This document shows positions 14,089-64,000 of a stretch of DNA of 64,000 nt, piece by piece. Within the stretch, counting starts at the first letter, position 1; each line of letters starts with the position of its first letter. Position numbers and translations under genes: made by a program. The stretch is from Sporosarcina sp. E16_8 (lineage in GTDB: Bacteria; Bacillota; Bacilli; Bacillales_A; Planococcaceae): NCBI RefSeq assembly GCF_017347095.1, contig NZ_JADPRZ010000007.1, forward strand, positions 1 through 64,000, read 5' to 3'. A model generated the notes under the pieces. The model was not told the origin of the DNA and made no database searches. It saw only the letters and a program-made list of their open reading frames with translations.

Positions 14089-14502
14089 GTGATTACAATC
14101 AAAAAAACAGTACATGTTGTTGGAGCAATTATAGAAAATGAAACCGGTAAAATTCTTTGTGCGCTACGAGGGCCAGAAATGACCTTGCCGAATTACTGGG
14201 AGTTTCCAGGCGGAAAGATTGAAGAAGGCGAAACAAAAGAAAAGGCCTTAACGCGCGAAATTCAAGAAGAGCTGGGCTGTACAATTGAAGTATTTGATCA
14301 AATCGAAGATACAACGTATGAATATGAAAAAGTTATCGTGAGGCTAGAGACATTTATGTCGAAAGTGATTTCTGGAACTCCAACACTTTCGGAACATGCG
14401 GAAATAAGATGGATTTCGAGAGAAGAGTTACCGTCATTGAATTGGGCGCCTGCTGATATTCCGGCAATTGAAAAGTTAACGAATCTAATCCCGAAGAAAT
14501 AA
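14089..14502 (+). CDS. Nudix hydrolase, MutT-like
   Basis: Nucleotide pyrophosphohydrolase with a complete Nudix box: GGKIEEGETKEKALTREIQEELGC (G-x5-E-x7-RE-x2-EE-x-G). Family relatives start MKKTVHVVGA. Here the matching position (14098) is ATC, although AGGTGA sits at the right distance before it; the nearest usable start is GTG 14089, which gives 137 residues but poor ribosome-site spacing. It lies 25 nt before the helicase gene and is probably co-transcribed. The substrate (8-oxo-dGTP or another nucleotide) cannot be told. Confidence 0.85.
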   Translation: MITIKKTVHVVGAIIENETGKILCALRGPEMTLPNYWEFPGGKIEEGETKEKALTREIQEELGCTIEVFDQIEDTTYEYEKVIVRLETFMSKVISGTPTLSEHAEIRWISREELPSLNWAPADIPAIEKLTNLIPKK

Positions 14503-14527
14503 AATAGCAAAGAGATGCGGTGATAAC

Positions 14528-21208: not shown

Positions 21209-21245
21209 AATAAGGGGAAGGCTCTGTGAAAGGATGGTTAATTAT

Positions 21246-23069
21246 ATGCAACAGGTTGCTAAACAGATTGCAGAAAATGCAACATTTCAGGCGTTTATGA
21301 ATTGTTATATACGAGAAGTGAGTAGCGGACATTGGGTTAAAAAGGAGGTGTGGGTAAAAGAACAGCGATTATCTATGCTGATCACAGACGCACATGTGTT
21401 AGAGCTTGAGTTGCCGATACAAAACACCCGTTTTGCATTTGCTGTGGAATACAAATCTCTTGTTGGAAGACATAGATTTGGTGTCTCGTTGAAGTATTGT
21501 GCGAAACAAAAACAATGGCTTCCTGAAGATAAATTAACGATACTCATCACGCTCATTCAAGAACTACATTTAATGGCTAAGGCGGATGGGTGTCCTGGAC
21601 TTTCTTTCAGTTTTGATGAACTCATTCTTCGCATAATTGAGAGCTATCAAACGATGGCGAACTATATAGAAAAGAGTTTGGAAGATAAGAAACCAAATGG
21701 AGCTAACGATACGTTTATTGAAGCTGAGCAGTCTCTCTTATTTGGACATTGGCTTCATCCAACACCTAAAAGCAGACAAGGGATGGCAAATTGGCAACAA
21801 ACGAGTTTTGCTCCAGAGCTACAAGGTTCTTTCCAGCTTCACTACTTTCGAGTTGACCGTAAAATTGTGAAAGAGTCCTCTGTATTAGAAAAAAGTGCGA
21901 GTGAACTCATTTCTCAGTCTTTAACAAAATCACAACCTGATTTTGTTATGTCAGAGAAGGATTGCCTCATTCCGATGCACCCGCTTCAAGCACAGTGGCT
22001 TTTACAGCAAGAGTATGTAAAAAAAGCGCTTGCCGAAGGATTGATAAAATACGAAGGTGCGCTTGGGGCGTTTTATACAGCAACCTCTTCGACAAGAACG
22101 GTATATAGCTCAAATGAAGAAATGATGTATAAATTTTCAATTCCTGTAAAAATAACAAATTCATTGAGGGTAAATCGAACTCATGAACTAAAAGCGGGAA
22201 TTGTTATGGCTCGGTTAATGAATAAGATTGATTTCTTACAGAACCATCCATCTTTTCGAATGATTGATGACCCAGCCTATATGACTGTAGAGTTTCCAAA
22301 TCAGACGGAATCAGGGTTTGAGGTAATTTTTCGCTCAAACGTATTTCCTAAAGGACATGATGAAGGAATCTGCATGATCGCTGCTCTTGTTCAAGAGCCT
22401 CTGCCAAAAGAAAAATCGAGACTGTGTCAGCTCATCATGAAAATTTCTCAATCAGAATCCCGCTCATTAGAAAGCGTAAGTTTAGATTGGTTTAAAGTCT
22501 ATTGGAAATGTGCTATTGAATCATTATTAAGGTTATACGATGAGTATGGGATAGCTCTTGAAGCACATCAGCAAAATAGTGTGTTAAACATTTCTTCAGG
22601 TTATCCAACTACTTATTATTATCGTGATAACCAAGGGTATTACTTATCAAAAGCGTATAAAGAAGAACTACTTTCAATAGAGCCTTCTTTACGTGAAACA
22701 GAAGAGCTATTTTACGAAGATGCCCTTATTCATGATAGATTTACCTATTATTTGTTTGTGAATCAATTGTTTTCCGTTATTTCCCGATTTGGAGCAGACC
22801 AGCTAATCGATGAAAAAACTCTTTTGAAGTGGTCTATCGATCAACTGCACTTATTAGAAAAGGATTTTACAGGTCAAGGGAAGGCATTTGTCCGTAACAT
22901 TCTAAAACAAGAAAAGCTTGCGTTCAAAGCAAATTTATTAACAAGGTTTCATGATGTAGATGAACTAGAAGCCGAGCTTGAACAAGCGGTATACACGAGA
23001 ATTCCAAATCCGTTTTTTCTTCAGCATGAGGAGGAAGAATATGCAGCAGCTACAGCCTTTAGCTTCTAA
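21246..23069 (+). CDS. asbA: Petrobactin synthetase AsbA (IucA/IucC family, NIS synthetase)
   Basis: NRPS-independent siderophore synthetase that in petrobactin assembly joins spermidine to citrate. 607 residues. Family segments: ATSSTRTVYSS (ATP-binding) near residue 270, KITNSLRVNRTHELKAG near 300, and ALEAHQQNSVLNIS near 440. ATG 21246 is chosen over ATG 21234 because the protein then begins MQQVAKQIAENATFQAF and GAAAGGATG lies upstream. The end overlaps asbB by 29 nt. First gene of a six-gene operon behind two Fur boxes. Confidence 0.92.
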   Translation: MQQVAKQIAENATFQAFMNCYIREVSSGHWVKKEVWVKEQRLSMLITDAHVLELELPIQNTRFAFAVEYKSLVGRHRFGVSLKYCAKQKQWLPEDKLTILITLIQELHLMAKADGCPGLSFSFDELILRIIESYQTMANYIEKSLEDKKPNGANDTFIEAEQSLLFGHWLHPTPKSRQGMANWQQTSFAPELQGSFQLHYFRVDRKIVKESSVLEKSASELISQSLTKSQPDFVMSEKDCLIPMHPLQAQWLLQQEYVKKALAEGLIKYEGALGAFYTATSSTRTVYSSNEEMMYKFSIPVKITNSLRVNRTHELKAGIVMARLMNKIDFLQNHPSFRMIDDPAYMTVEFPNQTESGFEVIFRSNVFPKGHDEGICMIAALVQEPLPKEKSRLCQLIMKISQSESRSLESVSLDWFKVYWKCAIESLLRLYDEYGIALEAHQQNSVLNISSGYPTTYYYRDNQGYYLSKAYKEELLSIEPSLRETEELFYEDALIHDRFTYYLFVNQLFSVISRFGADQLIDEKTLLKWSIDQLHLLEKDFTGQGKAFVRNILKQEKLAFKANLLTRFHDVDELEAELEQAVYTRIPNPFFLQHEEEEYAAATAFSF

Positions 23070-24795
23070 ACAAGGAGAGCTACGTGTAAGACGGCAGCTC
23101 GTGGAAGCAATGATTTTTGAAGGACTAATCAAATATGAAGAAACTCGTCTAGATAAATGGACTTCAATCTTTACTCTTGATGGACAGAAGTGCACCTATC
23201 GTTGTGAAGGGAGAAGAATGGCATTTGATCGTATCCGAATAAAGGGAGATAGTATTTTTCAAGTAGGAAAAGATGAAACGTTACTAGTAGCAACGCTTGA
23301 GGATCTAGTAGATGAATTACTTTCGACTCTTAGAGACAAAGTTCGATTACTGAAAGAACTTCATTTAACAAGTAAGCTTTGTGAATGGAATGATCGTCAT
23401 CTCGAACTGCCAATGTCTAGAAGAAATTCGAGCTATGAAGAATTAGAATCAGAAATTATTGAAGGACATCCATATCACCCTTGTTTTAAATCAAGAACCG
23501 GTTTTACGATCGACGACCATAAAGACTATGGCCCTGAGGCAAAGCAATCATTTACCCTTCAATGGGTTGCAGTGAGAAGAAACTATGTACGAATCACTGT
23601 TCTTGAAGAGGAAGAGAGCTTTTGGAAAAGAGAGGTAGGGCATTTGATGTGGGAAGGCCTTCTTGCAAAGCTTGCGGTATTCGATGGAACATATGAAGAA
23701 TATACGTTTTTACCGGTTCATCCTTGGCAGTGGCATAACATGAAACATGAACTAGCTGAATTAATTGAGCAAAAAGATTTAATTCCTCTAGATGTGAAAG
23801 GAGATTACTATCGGGCAACCCAATCGGTGCGAACATTATGGAATTTTTCAAATCCTAAAAAGGCACAATTAAAATGTTCGATGAATATGGTGAATACCTC
23901 TTCATTACGAAAGTTAGATTCTCATGCTGTTTGTGCCGCTCCTCATATTTCAGCATGGCTTAAACAGGTCATTCAATTAGACTCCTATTTACAAAAAGAA
24001 GCGTCTCTTATTGTACTCGAAGAATATGCAGGGATTATTTTTGAACCGAATGTAAAAAAGCATAGCACAAAAATAGAAGGTCAGCTTGGCTCGATATGGC
24101 GAGAAAGTGTGCGCTCGTATATGAAGGATGATGAAGAAGCGGTACCGTTTACGGTGCTAATGATGATGGAGAAAGATGGGCGTCCGTTTATAGATGATTG
24201 GCTTTTCAGATATGGAACGGAGGAGTGGGTAAAGCGCTTGATCGAAGTGAGTGTTATTCCTGTGTGGCACTTGCTTGTCGCTCACGGTATTGCTGTTGAG
24301 GCCCATGCGCAAAATATGATTTTAGTACATAAAAATGGCTGGCCGACTCGGGTTGTACTGAGGGATTTCCATGACAGTATCGAATATATTGAAGAATTTA
24401 TTGCAGATAGAAGCCTCGTTCCAGACTTTGAATCAATACACGAACGTTTTAAAGATGCACCTGTCGATGTTTATTATTGGATGTCTTCTGTAGAAGCTTT
24501 ACGAGAGTTAGTTATGGATACATTATTCGTGTTTCATTTAAGTGAACTATCTTATTTGCTAGAAGAGCAGTATGGATTTGCAGAAACATGTTTTTGGAGT
24601 CAAGTTTGGGACGGCATACAAAGGCACTTTGAACGTTTTCCATCATTATTCTCAAGAAATGAACAGCTTCAGCATACTAGCACAAATATTTATGTTGAAT
24701 CTTTGCTAACAAAGAAACTTCAAAATCAAGAAGAAGGTAACTTTCGACATATCGTCAGCAATACGTTGGCGCAAGCGGATAAAAAGGGGAAATGA
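23041..24795 (+). CDS. asbB: Petrobactin synthetase AsbB (IucA/IucC family)
   Basis: Second NIS synthetase, which attaches the second spermidine-derived arm to the citrate core. 584 residues. Landmarks: EGHPYHPCFKSRTGF near 140, LPVHPWQWHN near 230, ATQSVRTLWNF near 260, VEAHAQNMILVHKNGWPTRVVLRDFHDS near 420. The frame is open from 22978, but ATG 23041 directly follows GAGGAGGAA. It overlaps asbA at its start and asbC by 4 nt at its end. Confidence 0.92.
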   Translation: MQQLQPLASKQGELRVRRQLVEAMIFEGLIKYEETRLDKWTSIFTLDGQKCTYRCEGRRMAFDRIRIKGDSIFQVGKDETLLVATLEDLVDELLSTLRDKVRLLKELHLTSKLCEWNDRHLELPMSRRNSSYEELESEIIEGHPYHPCFKSRTGFTIDDHKDYGPEAKQSFTLQWVAVRRNYVRITVLEEEESFWKREVGHLMWEGLLAKLAVFDGTYEEYTFLPVHPWQWHNMKHELAELIEQKDLIPLDVKGDYYRATQSVRTLWNFSNPKKAQLKCSMNMVNTSSLRKLDSHAVCAAPHISAWLKQVIQLDSYLQKEASLIVLEEYAGIIFEPNVKKHSTKIEGQLGSIWRESVRSYMKDDEEAVPFTVLMMMEKDGRPFIDDWLFRYGTEEWVKRLIEVSVIPVWHLLVAHGIAVEAHAQNMILVHKNGWPTRVVLRDFHDSIEYIEEFIADRSLVPDFESIHERFKDAPVDVYYWMSSVEALRELVMDTLFVFHLSELSYLLEEQYGFAETCFWSQVWDGIQRHFERFPSLFSRNEQLQHTSTNIYVESLLTKKLQNQEEGNFRHIVSNTLAQADKKGK

Positions 24796-26030
24796 TGATG
24801 TTTTATGTCAATGATCAATTCTATACACTAGAAGATATCGAGAAGCAATATGAAGTATATGAAAGCTTATCTCATCTAAGAGAGTGTAACAATCGCAGAC
24901 TAGCTATTTGTACGGATGATACTTTCCAATATATAGTTCTTTGTTTATATATTCGGCAAAAAGGTGGTTCAGTCGTCCCAATCCATCCAGCGACTCCAAA
25001 AGAGGGATCTTTGCGGCTTGCTTCTTCAGCAGGTAGTCATCTTTTGTTGTTCCAATCGATCGATTCCTTTATCGAACTATCAAATCATTCTAATAACCAA
25101 GAAGGAGTATTAGTTCAAATGAGCTCAGGTACAACAGGAGCTCCGAAATGTATTGAACGAACGTGGAGTTCAGTGGAAGAAGAGATTGAAAGCTATGTGA
25201 AGACGTTACCTATCGATTCCTTGACAAATTCTATTGTCGCTTGTCCGGTTACTCATTCTTATGGATTCATTTGTGGTGTCTTGGCTTGCATAAGAAGGGG
25301 AGCAAATCCGGTTATTATTACGAATAGTAATCCTAAATATATTTTGAAAAAGTTAAAAGAATTTCCGAAGCATATACTCTATGCTGCTCCAGCGTTACTT
25401 TATACATTAAGTCGATTATTGCCTATTGATCAGAAATTTGATCGTGTGATGACGTCAGGAACATTGATGCCGCATAGTTGGTTGACATCATTAAAAGAGA
25501 AATCTCGCCAAGTATTACAGCAGTATGGATGCTCTGAATCCGGTTGTGTTGCGATTAACCCTAATTTGGAAGACACGAAAGAAATGGGCTATCCCCTTCC
25601 TCATGTGAAGGTGACAGCTGGTGACAAACAAACACCGAGCGAAATTATCATTGAATTGTACACACAAACGATTTATACAAAAGATCTTGGCTATATAGAA
25701 GATAATGTTCTGTCTTTTCTTGCAAGAATGGATGACACGATTAATGTAGCAGGCTTGAATGTGTATCCGCAAGAAGTTGAAACCGTGTTAATGGATGACC
25801 CAAGAATAGTCGAAGCGGTCGTATATAAGAAACAAAACAGCCTATCAGGAGAGCGAGTATGCGCACTATACGTGTCTACTGAACCAATCGATAATATGGA
25901 ACTTAGAGAATGGTGCCGGAAATATCTCGCTCCACATCAAATTCCGATGGAGTTTGTGTTTGTTCATGAAATCGAAAAGCTACCAAATGGAAAAGTTAGT
26001 AGAAAAAAACTCGGAGGCATACCAGTATGA
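24792..26030 (+). CDS. asbC: 3,4-dihydroxybenzoate-AMP ligase AsbC
   Basis: Adenylate-forming ligase that activates 3,4-dihydroxybenzoate and loads it on the carrier AsbD. 412 residues; the P-loop-like motif MSSGTTGAPK is near residue 110, TSGTLMPHSW and QQYGCSESGC in the middle, and the C-terminal catalytic lysine lies in LPNGKVSRKKL. Three consecutive ATG codons (24792-24800) follow AAGGGGAA. It is shorter than typical acyl-CoA ligases, as in known AsbC. Confidence 0.9.
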   Translation: MMMFYVNDQFYTLEDIEKQYEVYESLSHLRECNNRRLAICTDDTFQYIVLCLYIRQKGGSVVPIHPATPKEGSLRLASSAGSHLLLFQSIDSFIELSNHSNNQEGVLVQMSSGTTGAPKCIERTWSSVEEEIESYVKTLPIDSLTNSIVACPVTHSYGFICGVLACIRRGANPVIITNSNPKYILKKLKEFPKHILYAAPALLYTLSRLLPIDQKFDRVMTSGTLMPHSWLTSLKEKSRQVLQQYGCSESGCVAINPNLEDTKEMGYPLPHVKVTAGDKQTPSEIIIELYTQTIYTKDLGYIEDNVLSFLARMDDTINVAGLNVYPQEVETVLMDDPRIVEAVVYKKQNSLSGERVCALYVSTEPIDNMELREWCRKYLAPHQIPMEFVFVHEIEKLPNGKVSRKKLGGIPV

Positions 26031-26284
26031 CGAGAGAACAATTGATCAAGAGCATCTATGATATTCTGGAAAAATCATTAGAGTTGCAGACACTGTCTTC
26101 TTTTAATGAAGATGCTCGGTTAAATGAGGATTTGTATATGGATTCAATTATGGTCCTTCAACTGATTCTTCATTTAGAGTTGGATCTTGGCATTTCCATT
26201 CCCGATGAGATTCTCGTTCCTAAAGATTTCAAAACAATAGGAACACTAGTAAGCTTTTTAGAAAAACAGCAAAAAGTAGAATAA
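26027..26284 (+). CDS. asbD: Aryl carrier protein AsbD
   Basis: 85-residue acyl-carrier domain that holds 3,4-dihydroxybenzoate on a phosphopantetheine arm. The attachment serine is S40 in YMDSIMVLQL. It overlaps asbC by 4 nt (ATGA) and is followed by asbE after 13 nt. Confidence 0.92.
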   Translation: MTREQLIKSIYDILEKSLELQTLSSFNEDARLNEDLYMDSIMVLQLILHLELDLGISIPDEILVPKDFKTIGTLVSFLEKQQKVE

Positions 26285-26297
26285 TCGGAGGGCAAAA

Positions 26298-27272
26298 ATG
26301 ATAAAAGTTCATTGTTTTGTAAGCTGTGTTTGTGAAGTTATTAAGAAAACGAAAGGCGTTGATCATAGACCCTACTATTTTGGGGTATGGGACGCAGATT
26401 TTGATGTGCTCGATAATGGAGTGCTAACATACCACTCAGATCGAATTGATCATCACTTCTTTCAAACATGGTATGAAATGCTCTATGGAATCAAGCTTTA
26501 TAAATGGTATGACGAAGAACAATCAAAACAAGAAAATATAAACAAGCTGCTAAGGTTATTAGAAAATAAATCTCCACATCAACATGTGATGGTGATGCTG
26601 GATTTATCGATGCTTCCAGAGCGAGAGAATAAATTTCATCAACGTCCATTTCCGCATTATGTGATGCTAGAATCGACAGAAAATGAAGCAGAGTGGTTTA
26701 TGTATGACCCTGATTTTCGCTGGGAAGGGATTTTGCCGAAGGAGAGGATTTTAGCTGCAATCCAAGAGCCAACTGTCGGCGGTGGCTATTACTTTGATTC
26801 TGAGACGATTATTGCTCCAACTACAGAGACGGTTGAAGCCTATTTTAATACATGTATAAAGCTTCAATGTAATCCGGTGACAGATGCAATTACCGAGATT
26901 ATTAAAGAGTATATCGTAGGAAATGAAAAAGATAGTATGTCAAAACTTCCGACTGCATTAAAACAATTGCCGGTTTTAGCAATTAGAAAGTATGCATATG
27001 AACATGCGTTTGCGTTTTTTTGGGAAGCTCTTGGTCGCGATGAGGAAGGCTTTGAAACATGGTGTGATGAAATTGGGCGTCTAGTAAATGGTTATACAAC
27101 GGTTCAGTATCGAGCGATGAAACTTGCGATGACGCAAGATTTGTTATTAGTTGAAGATATTTTTGTGAAGTTAGAAGAACAAAATTTCCTTGAGTTCAAG
27201 ATTAAGCAAGGATTACAAGAATGTTTTCAAGCATGGTTAACATTACAGCACAAGAAAGAGGTTCTTCCATGA
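26298..27272 (+). CDS. asbE: Petrobactin biosynthesis protein AsbE
   Basis: 324 residues. In the known pathway AsbE transfers the 3,4-dihydroxybenzoyl group from AsbD to a spermidine amine. Identified mainly by position and by family-like features (KTKGVDHRPYYFGVWDADFDV at the N-terminus, HYVMLESTENEAEWFMYDPDFRWEG in the middle). Start ATG behind TCGGAGG. It overlaps asbF by 4 nt. Confidence 0.88.
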   Translation: MIKVHCFVSCVCEVIKKTKGVDHRPYYFGVWDADFDVLDNGVLTYHSDRIDHHFFQTWYEMLYGIKLYKWYDEEQSKQENINKLLRLLENKSPHQHVMVMLDLSMLPERENKFHQRPFPHYVMLESTENEAEWFMYDPDFRWEGILPKERILAAIQEPTVGGGYYFDSETIIAPTTETVEAYFNTCIKLQCNPVTDAITEIIKEYIVGNEKDSMSKLPTALKQLPVLAIRKYAYEHAFAFFWEALGRDEEGFETWCDEIGRLVNGYTTVQYRAMKLAMTQDLLLVEDIFVKLEEQNFLEFKIKQGLQECFQAWLTLQHKKEVLP

Positions 27273-28093
27273 AACTATCTATCTGTACGATTTCGTTTCG
27301 GCACCATCTCCATTCGATTGATCAAATAGCTCACTTTGCAAAAACTCAAGGTTTTCAAGGAATCGAGCTATGGGGTGTTCATGCAAAGAACTTGGCAGAT
27401 GAACTTCATTATGGAGCAGAATGGCTAAGCTCATACGGTTTGGAAACGAGCATGATTAGTGATTATTTACCTTTAGAAGCACCAGTTTCTGAGATGATGG
27501 CTGAAACAGAGAAGTTATCTTCACTTGCAAAGCGCTGGGGGACGAATAAGATTCGTACATTTGTAGGAAAACAGGGCAGTTCAGGCACGAGTAAGAAAGA
27601 AAGGGAAGAACTTATTTCCAGGCTTAGAATGCTCTGTGATTATGTTGAGTCAAAAGGACAATATTTGCTTGTTGAAACTCATCCGAACACATTGACAGAT
27701 AATCTACCTTCAACTATGCAGTTACTCGAAGAAACGAATCACTCCAGCCTACGAGTGAACTTTGACGTTTTACATATATGGGAATCAGGGATAAACCCTA
27801 TTGTCGCCATGAAGCAACTTCGTCCTTATATCTCACATTTTCACTTCAAAAATATTGCCTCACGTGCACAACTTGGTGTTTTTTCTCCAAACAATGTTTA
27901 TGCTGCATCAGGGTCTAGAGAAGGGATCGTTCCATTGTTTGAAGGTGCGATTGATTATGATGAATTCCTAGCAGGAGTACCTTCAATAGAGGAGGTAGAT
28001 GCGTCATTGGAATGGTTCGGATCCAATGTGAAGAGCGTATTAGCAAAAGATGTTCAGGAGGTTAAGAAGGCTTTGCAGTTGGTTCAAATATAA
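27269..28093 (+). CDS. asbF: 3-dehydroshikimate dehydratase AsbF
   Basis: Makes 3,4-dihydroxybenzoate from 3-dehydroshikimate, using an AP-endonuclease-2-like TIM barrel with a divalent metal. 274 residues. Metal-ligand segments: VETHPNTLTDN, RVNFDVLHIWESG and ISHFHFKNI. ATG 27269 overlaps the asbE stop; the longer open frame to 27221 is inside asbE. It supplies the dedicated aryl precursor, so the operon is complete for petrobactin. Confidence 0.92.
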   Translation: MKLSICTISFRHHLHSIDQIAHFAKTQGFQGIELWGVHAKNLADELHYGAEWLSSYGLETSMISDYLPLEAPVSEMMAETEKLSSLAKRWGTNKIRTFVGKQGSSGTSKKEREELISRLRMLCDYVESKGQYLLVETHPNTLTDNLPSTMQLLEETNHSSLRVNFDVLHIWESGINPIVAMKQLRPYISHFHFKNIASRAQLGVFSPNNVYAASGSREGIVPLFEGAIDYDEFLAGVPSIEEVDASLEWFGSNVKSVLAKDVQEVKKALQLVQI

Positions 28094-28892: not shown

Positions 28893-29708
28893 TTAAAGAG
28901 TACATTCACTAGTAACATGATATCTTCCTATTGGTACCACAAAAGGAGAGCCCGAAATGGGGTCTTTTATCACAGAGCAACGAAGCCCGAAAACGTCTTT
29001 GATCAATTCACTTGTAATGATCTCTGAAGGCTTACCTTCCGCAGTTAGCTTTCCATGACGAAGGGCATAAATATGGTCTGCGTAACGTGCGGCCAAGTTG
29101 ATATCATGAAGGACCATTACAATCGTTGTTCCGCGTTTACGGTTAAGGTCAGTCAGCAGGTCAAGAATTTCTACTTGATACGTAATATCCAAAAAAGTCG
29201 TTGGTTCATCGAGAAATAAAATATCGGTTTGCTGCGCCAACGCCATTGCAATCCAGACGCGCTGTCTTTGTCCACCGGATAACTCGTCAATGTTCCGGTT
29301 TGCAAATTCGGTAATGTTCATTATGTCCATCGCTTCGGTAACGGCTTCATAATCCTTTTTTGTCCAACCGGAGAACATGGATTGGTGAGGGTACCTTCCC
29401 CGTCCGACCAAATCCGAGACCGATATTCCTTCTGGAACAATGGGGGATTGCGGCAGAAGTCCTAAAATGCGAGCCAATTGTTTCGGCGGAATTTTGCTGA
29501 GCGGTTTTCCGTCCAGTGTGATTTTTCCGGATGTCGGTTTGATAAGTCTCGCCAATGTTTTAAGAAGCGTAGACTTTCCGCAGCCGTTTGCACCAATAAT
29601 GACGCTTATTTTATTGCTGGGGATCAAAAGGCTTACGCCATGGACAATGGTTTGATTATCATAGCCCGATTCGACTTGTTCAGCTTGAAAAATATGTTCC
29701 GGTTTCAT
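28893..29708 (-). CDS. Iron-siderophore ABC transporter ATP-binding protein
   Basis: 271-residue FecE/FhuC-type ATPase. Walker A GANGCGKSTLLK, Q-loop LLPQSP, signature LSGGQRQR, Walker B ILFLDEPTTFLD and the switch histidine in VLHDIN are all intact. The C-terminal DPISGSPFVVPIGR resembles YusV-type ATPases. Its ATG overlaps the end of the permease gene by one base. Last gene of the four-gene importer operon. Confidence 0.93.
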   Translation of the reverse strand: MKPEHIFQAEQVESGYDNQTIVHGVSLLIPSNKISVIIGANGCGKSTLLKTLARLIKPTSGKITLDGKPLSKIPPKQLARILGLLPQSPIVPEGISVSDLVGRGRYPHQSMFSGWTKKDYEAVTEAMDIMNITEFANRNIDELSGGQRQRVWIAMALAQQTDILFLDEPTTFLDITYQVEILDLLTDLNRKRGTTIVMVLHDINLAARYADHIYALRHGKLTAEGKPSEIITSELIKDVFGLRCSVIKDPISGSPFVVPIGRYHVTSECTL

Positions 29709-30739
29709 TATAAATCTCCCTTGCGATTCATTCGGGTTAACAAGTAGATCAAGTAGGGAGCTCCTAGAATGCCTGTAATTACACCTACAGGGTATCTAGC
29801 AACGAATGCGAATTGTCCAATAAGATCTGATGCTAAGACTAAAACGATGCCAACAAGACCTGATGGAATGATGTTTGAAAACCCCACACCGACTAGTCTT
29901 TTTGCGATAGGTCCAGCAAGGAATGCGACAAATGCGATGGGTCCTGTTGTAGCGGTAGCTAACGCAATAATAAGTACAGAACTAATAACTAGTATAAGTC
30001 TTGTCTTATTAGTATCGACTCCAAGTGAAGTGGCTGCCTGCTCGCCTAGTTCCAACATATCCAATCGTTTCCCGAGTAAGATAATGACAGGTGTGAAGAT
30101 CAGAACTGTCACGATCAGAGGGTAAAGATTCTCCATTTTAGCTCCATTTAGACTGCCACTTAGCCATCTCATTGCAGTTGGAATATCGTGTTTCTGACCA
30201 ATAAGCAATAAATAGGAGATAACAGCGTTAAATATTGCTTGAATGCCAATTCCAATTAATATTAATCGACCTATTGAAAATGAACTCCCTTTTGATAATA
30301 GAAAAATAACAATTACTGTAGCAAGTCCGCCAACAACAGAAGCTATCGAAACAACCATATTACTTGCCTGAAGAACAATAATACAAAAAACAGCGGCTGC
30401 ACTTGAACCAGCTGTAATTCCGATGACATTGGGGTTTGCCAAAGGATTTCGCAACATTATCTGAAATACAGTACCAGCAACTCCGAAAGCAAATCCAGCA
30501 AAAATACCTGCAACCATTCGTGGAAAACGGATTGTCCCCACTGCAAATGATGCGCCTTTTACTTGTTCGCCCAACAGGACATGTATGACATCTTGAACGG
30601 GATAAATCGTATTTCCTAGCATAAGCATTGCGAAGCAAAGTGCTAAAGAAATGATTGCAAGTAAGGAAGTCACGAGTATAAAACGACGACGTCTCTTTGC
30701 TCTACCTACTATAATAAGATTGATTGATTCATTTCTCAT
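29708..30739 (-). CDS. Iron-siderophore ABC transporter permease (FecCD family)
   Basis: 343 residues with about ten hydrophobic helices. The family segment RFPRMVAGIFAGFAFGVAGTVFQIMLRNPLANPNVIGITAGSS is clear, as is GPIAFVAFLAGPIAKRLVG near the C-terminus. Most like the YfhA subunit of hydroxamate/citrate-type siderophore importers. Overlaps the upstream permease by 4 nt. Confidence 0.92.
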   Translation of the reverse strand: MRNESINLIIVGRAKRRRRFILVTSLLAIISLALCFAMLMLGNTIYPVQDVIHVLLGEQVKGASFAVGTIRFPRMVAGIFAGFAFGVAGTVFQIMLRNPLANPNVIGITAGSSAAAVFCIIVLQASNMVVSIASVVGGLATVIVIFLLSKGSSFSIGRLILIGIGIQAIFNAVISYLLLIGQKHDIPTAMRWLSGSLNGAKMENLYPLIVTVLIFTPVIILLGKRLDMLELGEQAATSLGVDTNKTRLILVISSVLIIALATATTGPIAFVAFLAGPIAKRLVGVGFSNIIPSGLVGIVLVLASDLIGQFAFVARYPVGVITGILGAPYLIYLLTRMNRKGDL

Positions 30740-31770
30740 AACGCGCGCATCTTCGTTTTCATAGTTAGTAAGATTAAAATAGGAGCCCCAATAAATGCTG
30801 TCACTATACCAACTTCAAGCTCACCTGGACTGCCGATAAGCCTACCGCAGACATCTGATATCGTTAAAATAATTGCACCTGAAAGGGCTGCCATCGGGAT
30901 AATATATCGTAAATCGGGACCAATAACGAGTCGAATTACGTGGGTGGCCAATAAGCCGATAAAGCCAATAGGACCTGCTAGTGCTGTTGCTGCACCACAT
31001 AATAGGACACCGCCAAAAGCAGCAATAAGTCTAAGCGTGCCAGTTCGTACACCTAAACCTTTAGCAACTTCATCACCTAATGCTAATGCATTCAGTGCTG
31101 GAGCCGAGAATAACGCTATTAGTATTCCTACAAGGAGAAAAGGAGTAAAAGTGGAGATCGTGCTCCAGTTTCCTGATCCCACACTGCCTACCTGCCAAAA
31201 TCTAAATTGATCCATTACGTTTGTGCGGGGAATCATAATTGCCATTACGAGAGAAGATAATGCTGCACTTGTAGCAGCACCCGCTAAAACGAGTTTAAGG
31301 GGCGTGGCACCGCCACTCCCCATAGACCCAATTCCGAATACAAAAATGGCAGTGATGATTGCTCCCGCTAGTGCAAGCCAAATATATTGACTAGCAGTAC
31401 TAATATTTAAAAAGGAAATTCCACAAACGACAAAGAGAGAGGCCCCTGTGTTCACTCCTAATATGCTAGGATCTGCAATAGGGTTACGCGTGACTGATTG
31501 CATAAGAGCCCCGGAAACTCCTAATGCGGCACCACACATTAAACAAAATACAGTTCTAGCAATTCTTTGGCGTACCACATTCGCTCCATGGGATTGTACA
31601 TCGGGATGGAATAAACCAGCCATTAGTTCATCCCATCCAACTGTGCGCGACCCAAATGCAAGTGAAGCCAATACACATAAACCGAGTAAAATAAGGGAGA
31701 GTACGAGGACTCTTATAAAATTTTTCGGAATAAGTAACTGCTTATTTTCTGAAACGGATGTATTGATCAT
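30736..31770 (-). CDS. Iron-siderophore ABC transporter permease (FecCD family)
   Basis: 344 residues, about ten helices, partner of the preceding permease. Landmarks: RTVFCLMCGAALGVSGALMQ, TRNPIADPSILGVNTGAS and GPIGFIGLLATHVIRL. It resembles YfiZ. Its ATG follows the stop of the binding protein without a gap (TAAATG), so translation is probably coupled. Confidence 0.92.
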   Translation of the reverse strand: MINTSVSENKQLLIPKNFIRVLVLSLILLGLCVLASLAFGSRTVGWDELMAGLFHPDVQSHGANVVRQRIARTVFCLMCGAALGVSGALMQSVTRNPIADPSILGVNTGASLFVVCGISFLNISTASQYIWLALAGAIITAIFVFGIGSMGSGGATPLKLVLAGAATSAALSSLVMAIMIPRTNVMDQFRFWQVGSVGSGNWSTISTFTPFLLVGILIALFSAPALNALALGDEVAKGLGVRTGTLRLIAAFGGVLLCGAATALAGPIGFIGLLATHVIRLVIGPDLRYIIPMAALSGAIILTISDVCGRLIGSPGELEVGIVTAFIGAPILILLTMKTKMRAL

Positions 31771-32817
31771 TTATTTTACCTTGTTAGCAGCTTCTGAAAG
31801 TAAATTTAAGTATTCATCAATTGAGTAATCAATTGCGAGCGGGTTTGGATTTCCAGCCGCTGCGAGTGGCGTGTTATCTCCAATAATTACAACAGATCCT
31901 CTTTGAACTGCTGGAATCTTTCCGAGAATTGGATCGTCTTGCAGTGCTTTTAATGTATTGTCATCTCCGTATGATACGAAAAGATCAACATCATTCAGTA
32001 TATCTGCATTTTCAGCACTTAATTCTAAGAAGAAACTAGTTGGATCAGTAATTTGACTCGTTATACTTTCAGGGTATTCCATTCCTAACTCAGTAAGGAA
32101 CTCACCACGAGGATCTGTAGGTGTATAAATATAAAATTTAGATAAATCTGTAGCTGTAATGCTAACAAATGCAGCTTTTTTACCTTTAATAACAGGGAAT
32201 TCATTTGCTTTGTCTTGAATTAACTTCTCTGTATCGGCAATTAGTTGTTTACCTTCCTCTTCCATGCCCATACCCATTGAATTGAATGTAACTTGGTCAC
32301 GCCATGAAGCTACCCAAGGGCTCGTTTGGTAGGCAACAACTGGAGCGATTTCACTTAATGTGTCATAGTCTTCTTGCGTAATACCTGAGTATGCTGCAAG
32401 AATTACATGTGGGTTTGCATCTGAAATTGCCTCAAAATCAAGTCCGTCTGTATCTTGGAAAATAACAGGTTTATCACCACCGAGTTCCTTGAGCTTGTCT
32501 GCTGTCCAAGGTAATAGTCCACTGTCATCCTCAACGCCGTAATTAGCCGCTGAAAAGCCTACAGGTACAACTCCGAGAGCGAGAGCAACGTCATGGTTTG
32601 CCCATGAAATCGTAACAACGCGTTCCGGTTTCTCTTCAATTACAGTTTCGCCAAAAGCATGCTTGATTACTTGCGGGTAGTCGGAGGTTTTTTCTTCCTT
32701 TTTTATATCTGTTGTGCCAGTAGAAGTGGAAGTAGATTTATCAGCTGAACAGGCAAACAGTAGTAACATAGTTGAAATAAATAAAATACTTAATGAGATT
32801 TTTCGTTTTGCTTTCAT
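31771..32817 (-). CDS. Iron-siderophore binding lipoprotein
   Basis: Substrate-binding protein that would deliver a ferric siderophore to the two permeases. The start is the ATG at 32817, behind AAAGGGGAG, not the longer frame to 33117; the product (348 residues) then begins with a lipoprotein signal ending LLLFAC, so the lipid-bearing cysteine is C24 or close to it. The domain continues EERPERV-type sequence (EEKPERVVTISWANHDVALALG) typical of FepB/FecB-like proteins. It is YfiY-like; the petrobactin link is inferred from the convergent asb operon and the shared Fur control. Confidence 0.9.
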   Translation of the reverse strand: MKAKRKISLSILFISTMLLLFACSADKSTSTSTGTTDIKKEEKTSDYPQVIKHAFGETVIEEKPERVVTISWANHDVALALGVVPVGFSAANYGVEDDSGLLPWTADKLKELGGDKPVIFQDTDGLDFEAISDANPHVILAAYSGITQEDYDTLSEIAPVVAYQTSPWVASWRDQVTFNSMGMGMEEEGKQLIADTEKLIQDKANEFPVIKGKKAAFVSITATDLSKFYIYTPTDPRGEFLTELGMEYPESITSQITDPTSFFLELSAENADILNDVDLFVSYGDDNTLKALQDDPILGKIPAVQRGSVVIIGDNTPLAAAGNPNPLAIDYSIDEYLNLLSEAANKVK

Positions 32818-32836
32818 TAGTAAGCTCCCCTTTAAT

Positions 32837-32857
32837 TGATAATGATTATCAGTATCA
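32837..32857. promoter_or_regulatory. Fur box of the importer operon
   Basis: TGATAATGATTATCAGTATCA, 20 nt upstream of the binding-protein start (minus strand). It nearly matches box 1 of asbA, so both operons should respond to iron together. Confidence 0.9.
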
Positions 32858-33115
32858 ATAATATATAATTCATTCCTGCTTGTCAATGAAAATTTTGTTT
32901 GGTTAATCGGCCATAGTAGGTGTAATGTACGTATTTCAAAATAGGGGTAGATAATCACGAATAATTCCACTATAGGTTTTTTAAAAAGGAATAAAAAAGT
33001 GTACATATTGACTCCAGTCAAATAATTATAAAAAATTGCATCCTGAGATTCTTTAATCATCAGTCTTTTAGTGATACGATAATAAGAATATAACCATTGA
33101 GGTGAGGGGGATTTC

Positions 33116-33733
33116 ATGTTCCTAGATAAACTAAAAAACCAGTTAAATGAAAATCAGTCCTTGTTTATTGGGGAGGAAACAGCTTTTCGTTCAGCAGTTT
33201 TAATACCACTAGTTCAAGTGGATGAAGAATGGCATATCCTTTTCGAAGTACGTTCATTTACCATGAGAAAACAGCCAGGTGATTGTAGTTTTCCTGGTGG
33301 TCGAATCGACTCCTCGGACCCATCTCCAGTGGCAGCTGCTTTACGAGAAACGCATGAAGAATTGGGTGTTGACCCAAAAACGGTTACGATTGTAGGGGAA
33401 TTAAGCCCTTATATTGCCTCCTCTTCATTTGTAATCTATCCGTTTGTAGCAACCATTGATTACAATCAAATTGTCCATTCGTATAACAAAGAAGAAGTTG
33501 AAGAGGTATTTACCATACCCATCAAATGGCTACTGAATTATGAGCCTTATATGCATGTAGTATCTGTTGAACCAGTGCCTTCGCCGAACTTTCCTTATGA
33601 AAAAGTAATGAATGGCGCTCAGTATCAATGGAGAGCCCGTCCAATGGAAGAATGGTTTTTCGATTATGAAAAGTATACAATTTGGGGTTTAACAGCTCGG
33701 ATTTTGAAACATTTTATAGAGATTATAAAATAA
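33116..33733 (+). CDS. Nudix hydrolase, CoA pyrophosphatase-like
   Basis: 205 residues. Nudix box FPGGRIDSSDPSPVAAALRETHEELGV, with the preceding FTMRKQPGDCSFPGG resembling the UPF0035/CoA-diphosphatase signature. Start ATG behind GAGGTGAGGGGG. It is divergent from the iron importer, ~300 nt from its start. It lies inside the direct-repeat bracket. Confidence 0.85.
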   Translation: MFLDKLKNQLNENQSLFIGEETAFRSAVLIPLVQVDEEWHILFEVRSFTMRKQPGDCSFPGGRIDSSDPSPVAAALRETHEELGVDPKTVTIVGELSPYIASSSFVIYPFVATIDYNQIVHSYNKEEVEEVFTIPIKWLLNYEPYMHVVSVEPVPSPNFPYEKVMNGAQYQWRARPMEEWFFDYEKYTIWGLTARILKHFIEIIK

Positions 33734-59633: not shown

Positions 59634-59754
59634 GTAGCAAACAATAACTTACTATTGAATGAAGCCGTTTTTTTAGTAGGTGTACTTTGGTTTTATTATA
59701 AATAATCACCAAAATTTCAGGGCCAGTCCCCGAAAAGAAGAGGAGTGTTCAATT

Positions 59755-60873
59755 ATGTTAATACGCTGTACGAAAAAAATGTTAGTTGAACTCAAAGTCG
59801 AAGCTGAATCAGTTGCGGAGGTAGATCCATTTTTCTCTTGGCACGCGAATATAATCATAGTTAATCGCAGGAAAGTGGTTGTACTTATGAACGATCATAA
59901 TCGTTATGCTGTTGTGCTGTACGGGCTAAAAGCAAAAGAATTTACAAGATTTAACGAGATTGCCTTGCAAGGAATCCGCGAAGCTTTCCAGGGCGAGGGG
60001 ATAAAGGACGAGGTAATTAAGCAGTATTTACTGCACTCCAAGGAAGTTTCCATTACGAAGACAAAGGACCGGACTTCTGTGGCAAGGATGAACAAGGCTT
60101 GTGAAAATGTCTACTTTTATGATGAGTTATGGGATAGTGATTCTATTTTTCAGCCGGAAATGGGTATCAGGATTAGCCGTATTTTAGTCGGGGACGGAAA
60201 GAACAGTTATTTACTCCCGCATGAAGAGTTGTATAAGGATCTCAAACTTTTTGCTGGTCAACCAATTTTTGAAACGAAAGCAGCAGTTCTGAAAGTTACA
60301 CTTAGGCTTGAAAATCATCAAGTGTGGCGGCGACTAGTGGTTCCTATAAACAAAACGTTTAACGAGTTGCATCGAATTCTGCAGACAGCTTTTGGATGGC
60401 AGGATTACCACCTTCATGATTTTACTATTTATGATAAGGCGGTTACTCCGAAAGAGCTCGTCGCAGTAGGACTTAATAACGAAGTCCAGAAACCAATCAT
60501 CAACCTTGTTTGTGATCAGGAGGCTTTTTCCTATCCAGGTAAAGTGGATAGGAAGCTTGAAAAAGACGTGAAGCTATCGGAATATATCCCTGCCTACGAC
60601 AAGCTGACGTATAGTTATGATTTCGGTGATGACTGGCAACATGATATCGAACTAGAAAGCATTATAGAGAACTATGATGCCAACCATTCTGTTTGCTTGG
60701 AGGGCGAAGGGAGCACACCACCAGAAGATGTAGGTGGCGAGCATGGATATGAACAATTCCTCAAAGTTCTTACTAATCCCGACCACCCAGAATATGAGCA
60801 TATGGTGACGTGGGGCCGGATGCAGCAGTATAGGGATTTTTCTATTACTAGTGTTAATTTACAGTTGAAGTGA
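59755..60873 (+). CDS. DUF6933 plus pRiA4b ORF-3-like two-domain protein
   Basis: 372 residues from ATG 59755 (GAGGAG upstream; frame open from 59680). Residues ~1-160 have the DUF6933 look (MLIRCTKKMLVELK, FFSWHANIIIVNRRKVVVLMNDHNRYAV). The rest is the pRiA4b ORF-3 fold: LKVTLRLENHQVWRRLVVPINKTFNELHRILQTAFGWQDYHLHDF, then YSYDFGDDWQHDIELE and EGEGSTPPEDVGGEHGYEQFL. Both are known but functionally unassigned. Confidence 0.88.
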   Translation: MLIRCTKKMLVELKVEAESVAEVDPFFSWHANIIIVNRRKVVVLMNDHNRYAVVLYGLKAKEFTRFNEIALQGIREAFQGEGIKDEVIKQYLLHSKEVSITKTKDRTSVARMNKACENVYFYDELWDSDSIFQPEMGIRISRILVGDGKNSYLLPHEELYKDLKLFAGQPIFETKAAVLKVTLRLENHQVWRRLVVPINKTFNELHRILQTAFGWQDYHLHDFTIYDKAVTPKELVAVGLNNEVQKPIINLVCDQEAFSYPGKVDRKLEKDVKLSEYIPAYDKLTYSYDFGDDWQHDIELESIIENYDANHSVCLEGEGSTPPEDVGGEHGYEQFLKVLTNPDHPEYEHMVTWGRMQQYRDFSITSVNLQLK

Positions 60874-61090: not shown

Positions 61091-62005
61091 ATGAAAAACA
61101 TTACGATTGAAGAAATTAGTAATACGTTTTCATTGGAAGTGTTAAGCGGGCACGACCAATTGCATCGAATTATAAAAAAATCCAAAGTGCGCCGTCCGGG
61201 ATTAGAGTTTATGGATAAATTTGATTTCATTGCAACGGAACATGTTCAGATACTTGGTAAAAACGAAGTTAATTATCTTCATACGCTGACGTTTGAGGAG
61301 TGCAAGCTACGGATTGCAAATATTGTTCAATACGCTCCTCCTTGTATCATTATTACATCCCAACAGGAGGAGCCACTGGGACTGATCCAATACTGTACGG
61401 AAGAGAAGATACCGGTGCTACGTACTCGTGATTCCACGAGTGAACTGAGCGCGAAATTGGATGCGTATGTTGTGAAAGCAATGGCTCCAGAAATTGCAAT
61501 ACACGGTGTTTGTGTCAATGTATCGGGGATGGGTATTCTACTGCGCGGCAAGTCTGGTGTAGGGAAAAGTGAGACCGCTCATACATTGATTGGTCGGGGA
61601 CATCGGCTGGTAGCGGATGATGTCGTGGTGTTGAAAAAGCTTAGCCCACAAACCTTGCTCGGCACGCACGACGAAAACAGCAAAGAATTTCTTGCTTTAC
61701 GTAGTATCGGCTTGTTAAACGTGGTGCGCCTTTATGGAAGAGCTGCTTTCCAGGATGAAACGAGGATTGCGTTGGACATCGAATTGACCAAGTGGAAGGA
61801 AAATGACTTGAATAATGAGTTGGAACAGGAAACAAAGTTTGTGGAATACATGGACGTTCAGATTCCACATATCCAAATCCAACTTCAACCGGGTCGTGAT
61901 ATCGCAGGCTTGATCGAAGCCGCGGCGAATAACTGGTATTTAAAGCAGCAGGGTTATAGTGCAGTAGAGGAATTCATGAAACGAATTGAATCGGATACTC
62001 CTTAG
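61091..62005 (+). CDS. HPr kinase/phosphorylase paralogue
   Basis: 304 residues. Walker A GKSGVGKSETAHTLIGRGHRLVADDVVVL is intact; LRSIGLLNVVRLYGRAAF and PGRDIAGLIEAAANNWYL match the HprK second half. In Bacillales the main hprK lies next to lgt; here the gene is alone, without lgt or ppaX. It may phosphorylate HPr/Crh or another small protein. ATG behind AGGGGACC. Probable second copy in the genome. Confidence 0.88.
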   Translation: MKNITIEEISNTFSLEVLSGHDQLHRIIKKSKVRRPGLEFMDKFDFIATEHVQILGKNEVNYLHTLTFEECKLRIANIVQYAPPCIIITSQQEEPLGLIQYCTEEKIPVLRTRDSTSELSAKLDAYVVKAMAPEIAIHGVCVNVSGMGILLRGKSGVGKSETAHTLIGRGHRLVADDVVVLKKLSPQTLLGTHDENSKEFLALRSIGLLNVVRLYGRAAFQDETRIALDIELTKWKENDLNNELEQETKFVEYMDVQIPHIQIQLQPGRDIAGLIEAAANNWYLKQQGYSAVEEFMKRIESDTP

Positions 62006-62467: not shown

Positions 62468-62610
62468 GAAGTATACATTAATAGTCACGTTGTACACATT
62501 AGTGTACACGTTTGTAAACATTAACGTGTACAAGTATACAAACTAGTACACAACCAGTGTTTATATAGGTACACATTAATGTTTACAAGTTTACGGATGA
62601 GTACACAATA
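62468..62610. repeat. Phased GTNNAC repeat array (parC-like centromere)
   Basis: Short palindromic hexamers GTACAC, GTGTAC, GTATAC, GTAAAC and GTTTAC-like forms start at 62471, 62492, 62502, 62514, 62526, 62534, 62546, 62557, 62569, 62581, 62589 and 62601. Gaps are mostly 11-12 nt with two of 8, close to one DNA turn. It lies 100 nt upstream of the actin-like parM-type gene. This is the organisation of centromere arrays bound by ribbon-helix-helix ParR proteins. Also a likely autorepression site. Confidence 0.75.
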
Positions 62611-62709
62611 TTACATTTGTGTGTTAAGTAGTTGAATAGGATTGACCTGCAAACAAAGTTCCAGTACCATTTCAATAGAAAGCCAGAATAATTGGGGAGG
62701 ATGATTTTT

Positions 62710-63891
62710 ATGACAGAAACTCGCATTGCAGCAATAGACGTAGGAAATGATTCATTGAAAGCCATTTTCGGTAAGTTGGAAGCAGAACTAAATATACCGA
62801 ATGTAATTGCACAAGATGTTGCAGATCGTCCGATTATCGGAATTGAAGAACTCGACAACCAAGAGCCTACTGAAGGCATTCATATTCGTTTGCACTCCCC
62901 AACACTAAAAGATAACAACGCTATTTATCGTGTTGGGAATCTTGCTACGAAAAGTGGTAATTCAACTGAACTAGATCCAGGTAGCAACAAGTCTGAGGAA
63001 GACCAGACCTTGGTAATGTTGTTCGCGGCACTTGCGTTAGATGCAGCTCGTGACGAGAATAAAGGTATTTTCAAGCGTAATAATAATGTAATCGAAGCTA
63101 CGTATACACTAGGAACAGGACTTCCACTTAGGGAAGTAAAGGAAGGGAAAGACGTTGGTTATCGATCCCAGTTGCTTAGCTCTGTTCACCAAGTAGAGTT
63201 TTTAGTTACACCTAAATATCAAGGTATAAAAGTAAATATTAAATTTGATGAAGTAAAGGTTTATCCGGAAGGATTTGCTGCATTTATCAACCTTGTAATG
63301 GATAATAATTTAAATATCATTAATAAAGAACTAATCGATAAACAAATCTTGATACAAGACATCGGTGGGTTATCAACGGATGTTGCGGTCATTAGAAACC
63401 GTAAAGTTGATGATGATAAGGCACAAGGCTTCAACTTAGGTGTTTCAGAGTCTCTTGATGCTATTCGGGAAGAAATTTATGCTAGACATGGTGTAGAGTT
63501 GGACAGCCGTCTAGACGTTGTGGATATTATTACGAAGAAAAACAACCGTAATCACATCATGGTAAAAGGAAGCCGGACAAGCGTGCATGACATTGTAGAC
63601 CGGATTCTATTGGAATTAGCGAAAAAGCAATACCGTCATTTACGGAATGTGTGGGCAAGAAACTCACAATCTGAGATCTGCTATTTCATCGGCGGGGGCT
63701 CTATTGTCCTGAAAGATTACCTTAAAACACTAAATAATAGCTTAGATGGCTTCAATATTGATTTCTTTGAAGATGAAAAAGAAAGCGTTTGGATGATGGC
63801 CAATGCCTACTACAAATTGATTTCAGACTTTGCAAGAAAAAGCCAGAAAGCAAAATACAAAGAAGAAGAAAAATTAGTTAAAACAAAGTAA
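62710..63891 (+). CDS. ParM/StbA-family actin-like partition ATPase
   Basis: 393 residues from ATG 62710 (GGGGAGG upstream). Actin-fold nucleotide site: phosphate-1 AAIDVGNDSLKAIFGK, phosphate-2 IQDIGGLSTDVAVI and adenosine FIGGGSIVLKDYL. It would polymerise to push or pull DNA carrying the repeat array apart. Closest in appearance to the ParM/AlfA-like group of Bacillus elements. Next to a ParR-like gene 11 nt downstream. Such systems are usual on plasmids. Confidence 0.9.
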   Translation: MTETRIAAIDVGNDSLKAIFGKLEAELNIPNVIAQDVADRPIIGIEELDNQEPTEGIHIRLHSPTLKDNNAIYRVGNLATKSGNSTELDPGSNKSEEDQTLVMLFAALALDAARDENKGIFKRNNNVIEATYTLGTGLPLREVKEGKDVGYRSQLLSSVHQVEFLVTPKYQGIKVNIKFDEVKVYPEGFAAFINLVMDNNLNIINKELIDKQILIQDIGGLSTDVAVIRNRKVDDDKAQGFNLGVSESLDAIREEIYARHGVELDSRLDVVDIITKKNNRNHIMVKGSRTSVHDIVDRILLELAKKQYRHLRNVWARNSQSEICYFIGGGSIVLKDYLKTLNNSLDGFNIDFFEDEKESVWMMANAYYKLISDFARKSQKAKYKEEEKLVKTK

Positions 63892-63902
63892 GGTGATCAT
63901 TC

Positions 63903-64000
63903 ATGAGTGAGACAGGATTGAAGAGGGGTCAGCCCATTACGTTTCGTCTGCCGTCAGACACATCTGACCACACATTAAGGCAACTGCAAAAGTTGAAAGA
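63903..64000 (+). CDS. ParR-like DNA-binding protein (partial, runs off the window)
   Basis: ATG 63903 behind AAGGTGAT. The 32 visible residues (MSETGLKRGQPITFRLPSDT and on) fit the N-terminal ribbon of a ribbon-helix-helix protein that pairs with ParM. The strand ITFRLP is the typical base-contacting beta strand. The rest lies beyond the window. Confidence 0.7.
   Translation, partial: MSETGLKRGQPITFRLPSDTSDHTLRQLQKLK

Follow-up and report, generated by a model that had tools for sequence, protein, structure and literature searches.

A ParMRC-type partition cassette was found at the right end of the analysed stretch of 64,000 nucleotides (hereafter the window), and we put the probability at roughly 0.6 that it is, as far as the sequence can tell, a domesticated chromosomal cassette which lies near the replication origin in many Bacillales and acts on the origin region. 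The presence of the ParMRC segrosome parts together with purifying selection on both proteins makes a working partition machine the simplest reading, and the position of an early-replicated centromere near oriC suggests the origin region as its cargo. If true, this would represent an unrecognised way of moving bacterial chromosomes apart, and a role could be assigned to a gene family for which the annotation of the plasmid relatives goes no further than 'ParM/StbA family protein'. As the ParM family is resident on the chromosome, has its own array, is located near dnaA in 44 of 44 genomes and diverges less than core replication proteins, the question of its role in chromosome segregation becomes testable in culturable Bacillales that are not pathogenic.

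The parC-parM-parR cassette and its surroundings

The window corresponds to contig C7 of the 4.38-Mb draft genome G000 (138 contigs), a Sporosarcina-type chromosome in which the three parts of the cassette were identified (Table 1). Array, ParM-type ATPase and ParR-like gene follow each other in the parC-parM-parR order that the original prediction had given. Only the start of parR, 11 nt past the parM stop, lies inside the window, and the gene is complete once the sequence is read beyond the window end. The cassette sits between a gene for an HPr kinase/phosphatase (61091-62005) and a gene pair for a GHKL histidine kinase and a YcbB response regulator (window-equivalent position 64682 onwards). 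Among named carriers, the closest by ParM identity are Sporosarcina sp. BP05 (99%) and an S. psychrophila MAG (95%). The original prediction had pointed to the sequence on the right as the place to look for replication or integrase genes; a Pfam scan of 13 flanking proteins yielded neither a replication-initiator nor an integrase family, and the proteins look chromosomal (thiamine enzymes, a dicarboxylate symporter, YitT, VanZ and similar). One of the flanking proteins (59680-60873) belongs by its match to PRiA4_ORF3, a family that takes its name from an ORF on a plasmid.

Table 1. Features of the partition cassette and their positions in the window.
Feature	Position	Strand	Basis
parC-like array: 12 GTNNAC sites	62471..62606	+	site count against shuffles; array conserved across loci
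Putative sigma-A promoter (TTGACC, 17 nt, TACCAT), 3' of the array	62642..62670	+	read from sequence
Shine-Dalgarno-like GGGGAGG	62694..62700	+	read from sequence
parM: actin-fold ATPase, 393 aa, ALP_N + Alp7A_like_C	62710..63891	+	Pfam, alignment, sequence profile
parR: putative centromere-binding adaptor, 179 aa	63903..64000, on to window-equivalent 64442 (L002:3903-4442)	+	conserved 3' of parM

The parM frame given in Table 1 runs from an ATG to the stop codon, a longer TTG frame from 62692 being less likely. ParM matched the Pfam families Alp7A_like_C (3e-31), ALP_N (5.8e-11) and MreB-like_C, all above cut-offs, and the stretches of the nucleotide site are intact: AIDVGND (residues 8-14), VYPEG (184-188), QDIGGLSTD (216-224) and GGG (328-330). 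D10, G12, N13, E187, D217, G219 and G328-330 were invariant in 28 aligned ParM sequences, including the window's own; which residues are catalytic we take from the ParM/actin literature. The intact actin-fold ATPase that had been predicted was thus confirmed, and ParM displays the intact nucleotide motifs of a type II partition ATPase. It is of the actin/ALP type and not a Walker-type ParA, as would go with ParB in a ParABS system. A sequence profile linked it to the Clostridium ParM 7x54 (E 0.0029), the score for the NCBIfam plasmid segregation protein ParM (NF010498) was 24.9 bits at a cut-off of 417 bits, and an AlphaFold2 model of the window ParM was of low confidence (mean pLDDT 50.6).

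Two overlapping sets of loci were used for comparison, an 81-locus set (the window locus and 80 named loci) and a 45-locus position set, with several genomes common to both. A ParR family member is encoded directly 3' of parM in 81/81 loci and is present in 45/45 loci of the position set, where ParM, ParR and array always occur together. On the full sequence the gene downstream of the window parM proved to be ParR-like and homologous to the gene that follows plasmid parM. Across 35 sequences the N-terminal part of ParR shows strong conservation (RGQxITFRxPSD...RNFSSKIAE), and in the same sequences a variable acidic linker leads to a conserved C-terminal (D)DLLGDFLAQMNK-type tail (LLGDFLAQMNK-type). 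By analogy, the N-terminus would be a ribbon-helix-helix DNA-binding domain and the tail a ParM-binding element. The ribbon-helix-helix start claimed earlier stays a prediction, as ParR had no match in Pfam or NCBIfam at E 0.1. There was also no convincing PDB match, and a low-confidence AlphaFold2 model of the BP05 ParR (pLDDT 62.1) displayed helices at 22-34 and 39-57 and no strand.

Within 163 nt (62468-62630) the window contains 12 GTNNAC sites, compared to a mean of 3.03 and a maximum of 9 in 2000 dinucleotide shuffles, and the twelve sites initially counted were thereby verified; the sites at 62502 and 62504 overlap, so that 11 separate sites are left. The spacings are 21, 10, 2 and 10 nt, then 12-8-12, a gap of 23 and again 12-8-12, which corresponds to a 20-bp period at 62514-62551 and 62569-62606 after an irregular first part. 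The spacing of 11-12 nt with 8-nt gaps proposed earlier thus holds roughly for the second part of the array but not for the first. The array adjoins the operon like the iterated parC-type centromeres of type II systems, and it is a putative ParR site.

The array was conserved across the clade. At least six GTNNAC sites within 420 nt upstream were found in 80 of the 81 loci (8 to 13 sites in 67 of them), one locus having three, and 5-19 sites in all 45 loci of the position set. Spacings between neighbouring sites in the 81 loci were most often 12 nt (254 times) and 8 nt (178), followed by 13 nt (53), 10 nt (47) and 11 nt (30); spacings of 20, 21 and 24 nt occurred 44, 41 and 38 times and look as if one degenerate site lay in between. 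The consensus of the 8-nt pairs is atGTatACAtGTatACaaa (180 pairs). By a count uncorrected for chance, a TTGAC element occurred no more than 170 nt from the start codon in 61/81 loci, at a median of 38 nt past the last upstream array site. Over a fixed slice the window array is about 80% identical to that of BP05, compared to 94% nucleotide identity for parM, and the site pattern persists. No second cluster (at least 7 sites in 170 nt) was present elsewhere in the window or in the contig between 60 and 120 kb, and no further array in 40 dnaA-gyrA regions. A search by DNA similarity, which a diverged array could escape, identified no second copy in the genome; once the array and the inverted repeat within it were set aside, the next matches comprised 22-30 bases (E 0.19 or worse).

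Distribution and position on the chromosome

A scan of GTDB contigs yielded 418 stretches encoding a ParM relative. The best 80 of these were kept (78-99% identical) and came from Sporosarcina, Rossellomorea, Cytobacillus, Mesobacillus, Psychrobacillus, Peribacillus, Heyndrickxia, Siminovitchia, Priestia, Gottfriedia, Jeotgalibacillus and Pseudalkalibacillus, among others. Bacillus methanolicus PB1 (locus L085) is a tractable, non-pathogenic carrier; laboratory B. subtilis is not known to have the cassette. In whole-genome samples of the genus, class and orders, which overlap, the clade ParM was present in 14/61 genomes of the genus (at least 87% identity, own included), in 37/261 of the own order (at least 78%), in 24/398 of the class (at least 77%) and in 201/397 of the order of G311. 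The locus is dispensable at the species level, as the count within the genus demonstrates. The carriers in the order of G311 belong to 55/135 genera, their best E-values are no worse than 2e-196, and identities among the matches listed are 77-88%; six genomes had two matches there, of which only the listed one was used. Identities within the clade ranged from 77 to 99% across all samples among the matches listed. Eight further genomes of the class sample hold only relatives of 37-45%, and no ParM relative was found in that sample between 77% and 45%, a gap which separates the chromosomal clade from plasmid-type relatives. Among 72,556 plasmid records 59 matched ParM, all below 60% and the best among the matches listed at 44%, and a single phage of 50,697 matched at 26%. 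The clade is chromosome-encoded, occurring on 27 single-contig chromosomes and in records titled chromosome (CP066701.1, NZ_CP015506.1).

To relate the cassette to the origin, dnaA was located in 48/48 genomes given, of which 44 were usable. The window genome was left out because its dnaA is not on the contig of the cassette, G980 because it duplicates the assembly G673, and G981 and G982 were also dropped. The 44 comprise 27 of 30 single-contig parM-positive genomes, with G453, G677 and G681 left out because their positions were not among the matches listed, and 17 multi-contig genomes chosen for a low contig number (2-7) and a position among the matches listed, the many more fragmented carriers being excluded. 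Multi-contig distances were scaled to the half-contig, and nine of the 17 assume a circular contig. In all 44 genomes, representing 22 genera, the cassette was located 35 to 417 kb from dnaA, at no more than 0.19 of the half-chromosome (or half-contig); the median for the 27 single-contig chromosomes was 0.034. It lies left of dnaA on the opposite strand, co-directional with replication, in 43 genomes, and in the exception, G920, 280 kb to the right of dnaA and also co-directional. A KS p-value of 2.7e-21 was obtained for this closeness, which overstates the certainty as the genomes are related. In two close relatives of the window genome the distance is 216 kb (G041) and 250 kb (G951), and on the chromosome of Cytobacillus oceanisediminis 2691 about 161 kb as calculated by hand with contig C1 taken as the chromosome. 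The comparison with relatives that had been proposed at the outset thus revealed a cassette recurring in many Bacillales, near dnaA where measured, and together with the chromosome-like flanks this bears out the chromosomal setting originally claimed.

Further ParM-like proteins were encountered in these genomes. A second, plasmid-type ParM of the window genome (L025, G000:C21:49961-53809) is 25% identical and has a replication-relaxation gene beside it as well as a downstream gene with a serine-, threonine- and alanine-rich repetitive tail; the contig probably represents a plasmid that this strain carries. At L030 (G000:C22:21234-24857) a third actin-like protein of the ALP family (353 aa) is encoded, and eight of the 61 genus genomes, own included, have weakly similar genes whose open frames measure 358-361 aa. 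Plasmid-type chromosomal relatives at G293:C1:2623278-2624399 (39%) and G108:C14:28280-29362 (37%) each have one stop within the match; since their open frames (419 and 374 aa) come close to full length, the stop may reflect the edge of the match and not decay.

Evolution and relation to known partition systems

Trees were compared for 39 genomes, gyrB having been found in 39 of 40 origin regions (five with dnaA cut at the contig start were skipped). Mean tree distance was 0.36 for ParM, a value that horizontal exchange may lower in part, compared to 0.47 for DnaA, 0.49 for GyrB, 0.76 for DnaN and 0.84 for RecF, while ParR evolves fast (1.04). ParM distances correlated moderately with species distances (Mantel r 0.54) and better with ParR distances (0.76), suggesting that the genes of the cassette move together and that some horizontal exchange is likely. 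Five comparisons of parM gave dN/dS values of 0.016-0.052 and four of parR values of 0.074-0.179, some of them with synonymous sites near saturation (dS above 1); by this measure, both proteins are under strong purifying selection.

Like ParABS (Soj/Spo0J-parS), the cassette combines an origin-proximal putative centromere with an NTPase. ParABS relies on a Walker-type ParA and a ParB clamp, as opposed to the predicted actin filament and ParR here, and carriers of the cassette presumably have ParABS too, a point against the proposed role at the origin. The Alp7A-type plasmid ParMs (PF22128; e.g., pBM69 of B. methanolicus) have the same ATPase domain family and parM-parR order, but among the plasmids listed they are only 37-44% identical to the clade ParM. 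The genes following plasmid parM are homologous to the ParR N-terminus in pBM69 (41% over 92 residues), a Niallia plasmid (35%) and a B. subtilis plasmid (31%); their products end in NFDDDD, unlike the chromosomal ParR tail. The corresponding gene of an Alicyclobacillus plasmid is weakly similar (26% to ParR, E 0.004) and has neither tail. These four plasmid relatives, out of 59, have 0, 1, 5 and 9 GTNNAC sites in 450 nt and lack the 12/8 phase, and the Alicyclobacillus plasmid may carry a short array of a different form immediately upstream of parM.

The systems of pSK41 and R1 likewise consist of an upstream repeat array, an actin ATPase and an adaptor, but are plasmid-borne, with proteins divergent from the clade. 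A passage of PMC4911067 describes binding of pSK41 ParR to 10-bp direct repeats as a dimer-of-dimers, and the 20-bp period of the window array, with two half-sites, comes close to these repeats. The original prediction that the spacing differs from better-known arrays is consequently right in part.

Ali et al. (2025; PMC12270681) described chromosome-encoded ParMs in Desulfitobacterium and Clostridium. They also note that cParMs of B. tropicus are conserved across the chromosomes of several Bacillus, suggest roles that go beyond the segregation of plasmids and state that ParCMR is yet to be implicated in chromosome segregation. The cParM systems of that article resemble the cassette in having ParM and ParR genes on the chromosome with high within-group conservation (Desulfitobacterium), and in C. 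botulinum cparC is bound by ParR, the array here being a candidate counterpart. In contrast to the present clade, the main text gives no origin position ('dnaA' does not occur and 'oriC' only in a reference title), and according to a figure legend a conserved cparC was not identified in the Clostridium strains, whereas the array here is conserved across genera. Searches of the open-licence PMC literature did not turn up a chromosomal ParMRC of Bacillales described as origin-proximal. Thus, chromosomal ParM is known, and an origin-proximal, array-bearing clade of many genera appears to be new within the literature searched, although it may include Bt-cParM1 (WP_001968526.1) and Bt-cParM2 (WP_000025611.1).

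Proposed role, alternatives and other loci in the window

In the proposed mechanism, ParR dimers would load on the phased array and form a segrosome that caps or nucleates ParM filaments. ATP-driven filament growth would then take place between the segrosomes of newly copied sister loci, which would be made early owing to the position of the array near oriC, and the filaments would push or orient the origin regions of the two sisters, working together with the ordinary Soj/Spo0J-SMC machinery. By binding ahead of the promoter, ParR would probably limit expression too. ParR-array binding, filament formation, force on the origin and autoregulation are steps that we infer. More tentatively, and with less than even confidence, we propose that the cassette constitutes a second actin-filament machine for chromosome segregation with an origin-proximal GTNNAC centromere in about half of one large Bacilli order and scattered others, i.e., a bacterial 'spindle' derived from a plasmid-type ancestor and kept near oriC by selection.

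ParMRC cassettes are classically plasmid-borne, and the locus might accordingly be a remnant of an integrated plasmid or plasmid prophage in the chromosome, in line with the 37-44% plasmid relatives among those listed and with the separate plasmid-type ParM that the host holds on contig C21. However, replication and integrase families are absent from the 13 flanking proteins, the same clade resides on 27 single-contig chromosomes, no plasmid record reaches 60% and the one phage match is weak. In addition, three plasmid-type chromosomal ParM copies with dnaA on the same contig are located at about 0.95, 0.70 and 0.20 of the half-chromosome (genome sizes rounded; three further genomes with such copies were unusable for distance). 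With flanks, single-contig chromosomes and plasmid survey all against it, this origin was largely refuted and is highly improbable. Among the options of the original prediction, integrated plasmid and plasmid prophage are therefore unsupported and the data favour a chromosomal system with a new task, where chromosomal residence is borne out and the task is conjectural. Equally remote is a chromosomal decoy or competitor that acts on related plasmids entering the cell by binding or titrating their partition machinery: homologous plasmid systems do exist in Bacilli, but the four examined are without the chromosomal ParR tail or the 12/8 array, which makes cross-talk unlikely.

Somewhat unlikely, though the strongest of the alternatives, is that origin proximity is passive and the position of the ancestor's cassette was simply inherited. 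The constant side and strand in 43/44 genomes fit this, and a control gene, mqo (malate:quinone oxidoreductase, named by reading), which neighbours parM in two genera, was within 0.2 of the half-chromosome from dnaA in 15/26 genomes (median of all 26, 0.051), so that regional synteny explains part of the pattern. Yet mqo was beyond 0.2 in 11/26 and parM in 0/26, a comparison based on one control gene in related genomes. The immediate neighbours also change between genera, those within about 4 kb being common to 43/933 different-genus pairs compared to 40/57 same-genus pairs, and among 30 loci listed of 40 matches the right-hand kinase adjoins parM only in the window genome and G008. In G015 (locus L206) the window's two flanking genes, hprK2 and the kinase, are adjacent, 240 nt apart, and the cassette is on another contig. 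Less probable still is that the chromosomal ParM serves another task, such as sporulation-specific positioning, cell architecture or ParR regulation, with the array acting mainly as operator or local anchor. The location of the array upstream of a likely promoter and the wider functions suggested in passages of Ali et al. (2025) would agree with this, as would the occurrence of spoIVA in 37/37 parM-positive genomes of the own-order sample compared to 193/261 overall; the association, although compatible with a sporulation link, was not significant by genus (4/13 vs 0/6, p 0.26), and the link was dropped. Moreover, an operator alone needs no approximately 11 sites and leaves the origin-proximal position unexplained.

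Replacement of RacA by the cassette was also considered, in a weak test, and found no support. Using a B. subtilis-type RacA profile (E 1e-10), 110 genomes of the 397-genome order sample had both, 91 parM only, 92 a RacA-like protein only and 104 neither, indicating no mutual exclusion. The RacA cut-off itself was exceeded in ten genomes, which belong to a single genus, lack parM and are too few to argue from.

Other gene groups in the window were recorded independently of the cassette. Kynureninase, kynurenine formamidase-like cyclase and tryptophan 2,3-dioxygenase genes in a row (505-3228) were recognised by eye as a kynurenine pathway operon. At 14089-17422, a 964-aa protein with PLD domain, ResIII helicase and DUF3427 adjoins a gene at 14089 that was judged by eye to be of the NUDIX type (MutT-like), a possible defence-related pair. 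The five genes at 21234-28093 encode two IucA/IucC-type synthetases, an AMP-binding enzyme, a DUF6005 protein and a xylose-isomerase-like TIM-barrel protein, a run that we take to resemble a petrobactin-type siderophore operon, and it is followed at 28893-33117 by genes for an ABC transporter of the iron-siderophore type, as judged by eye.
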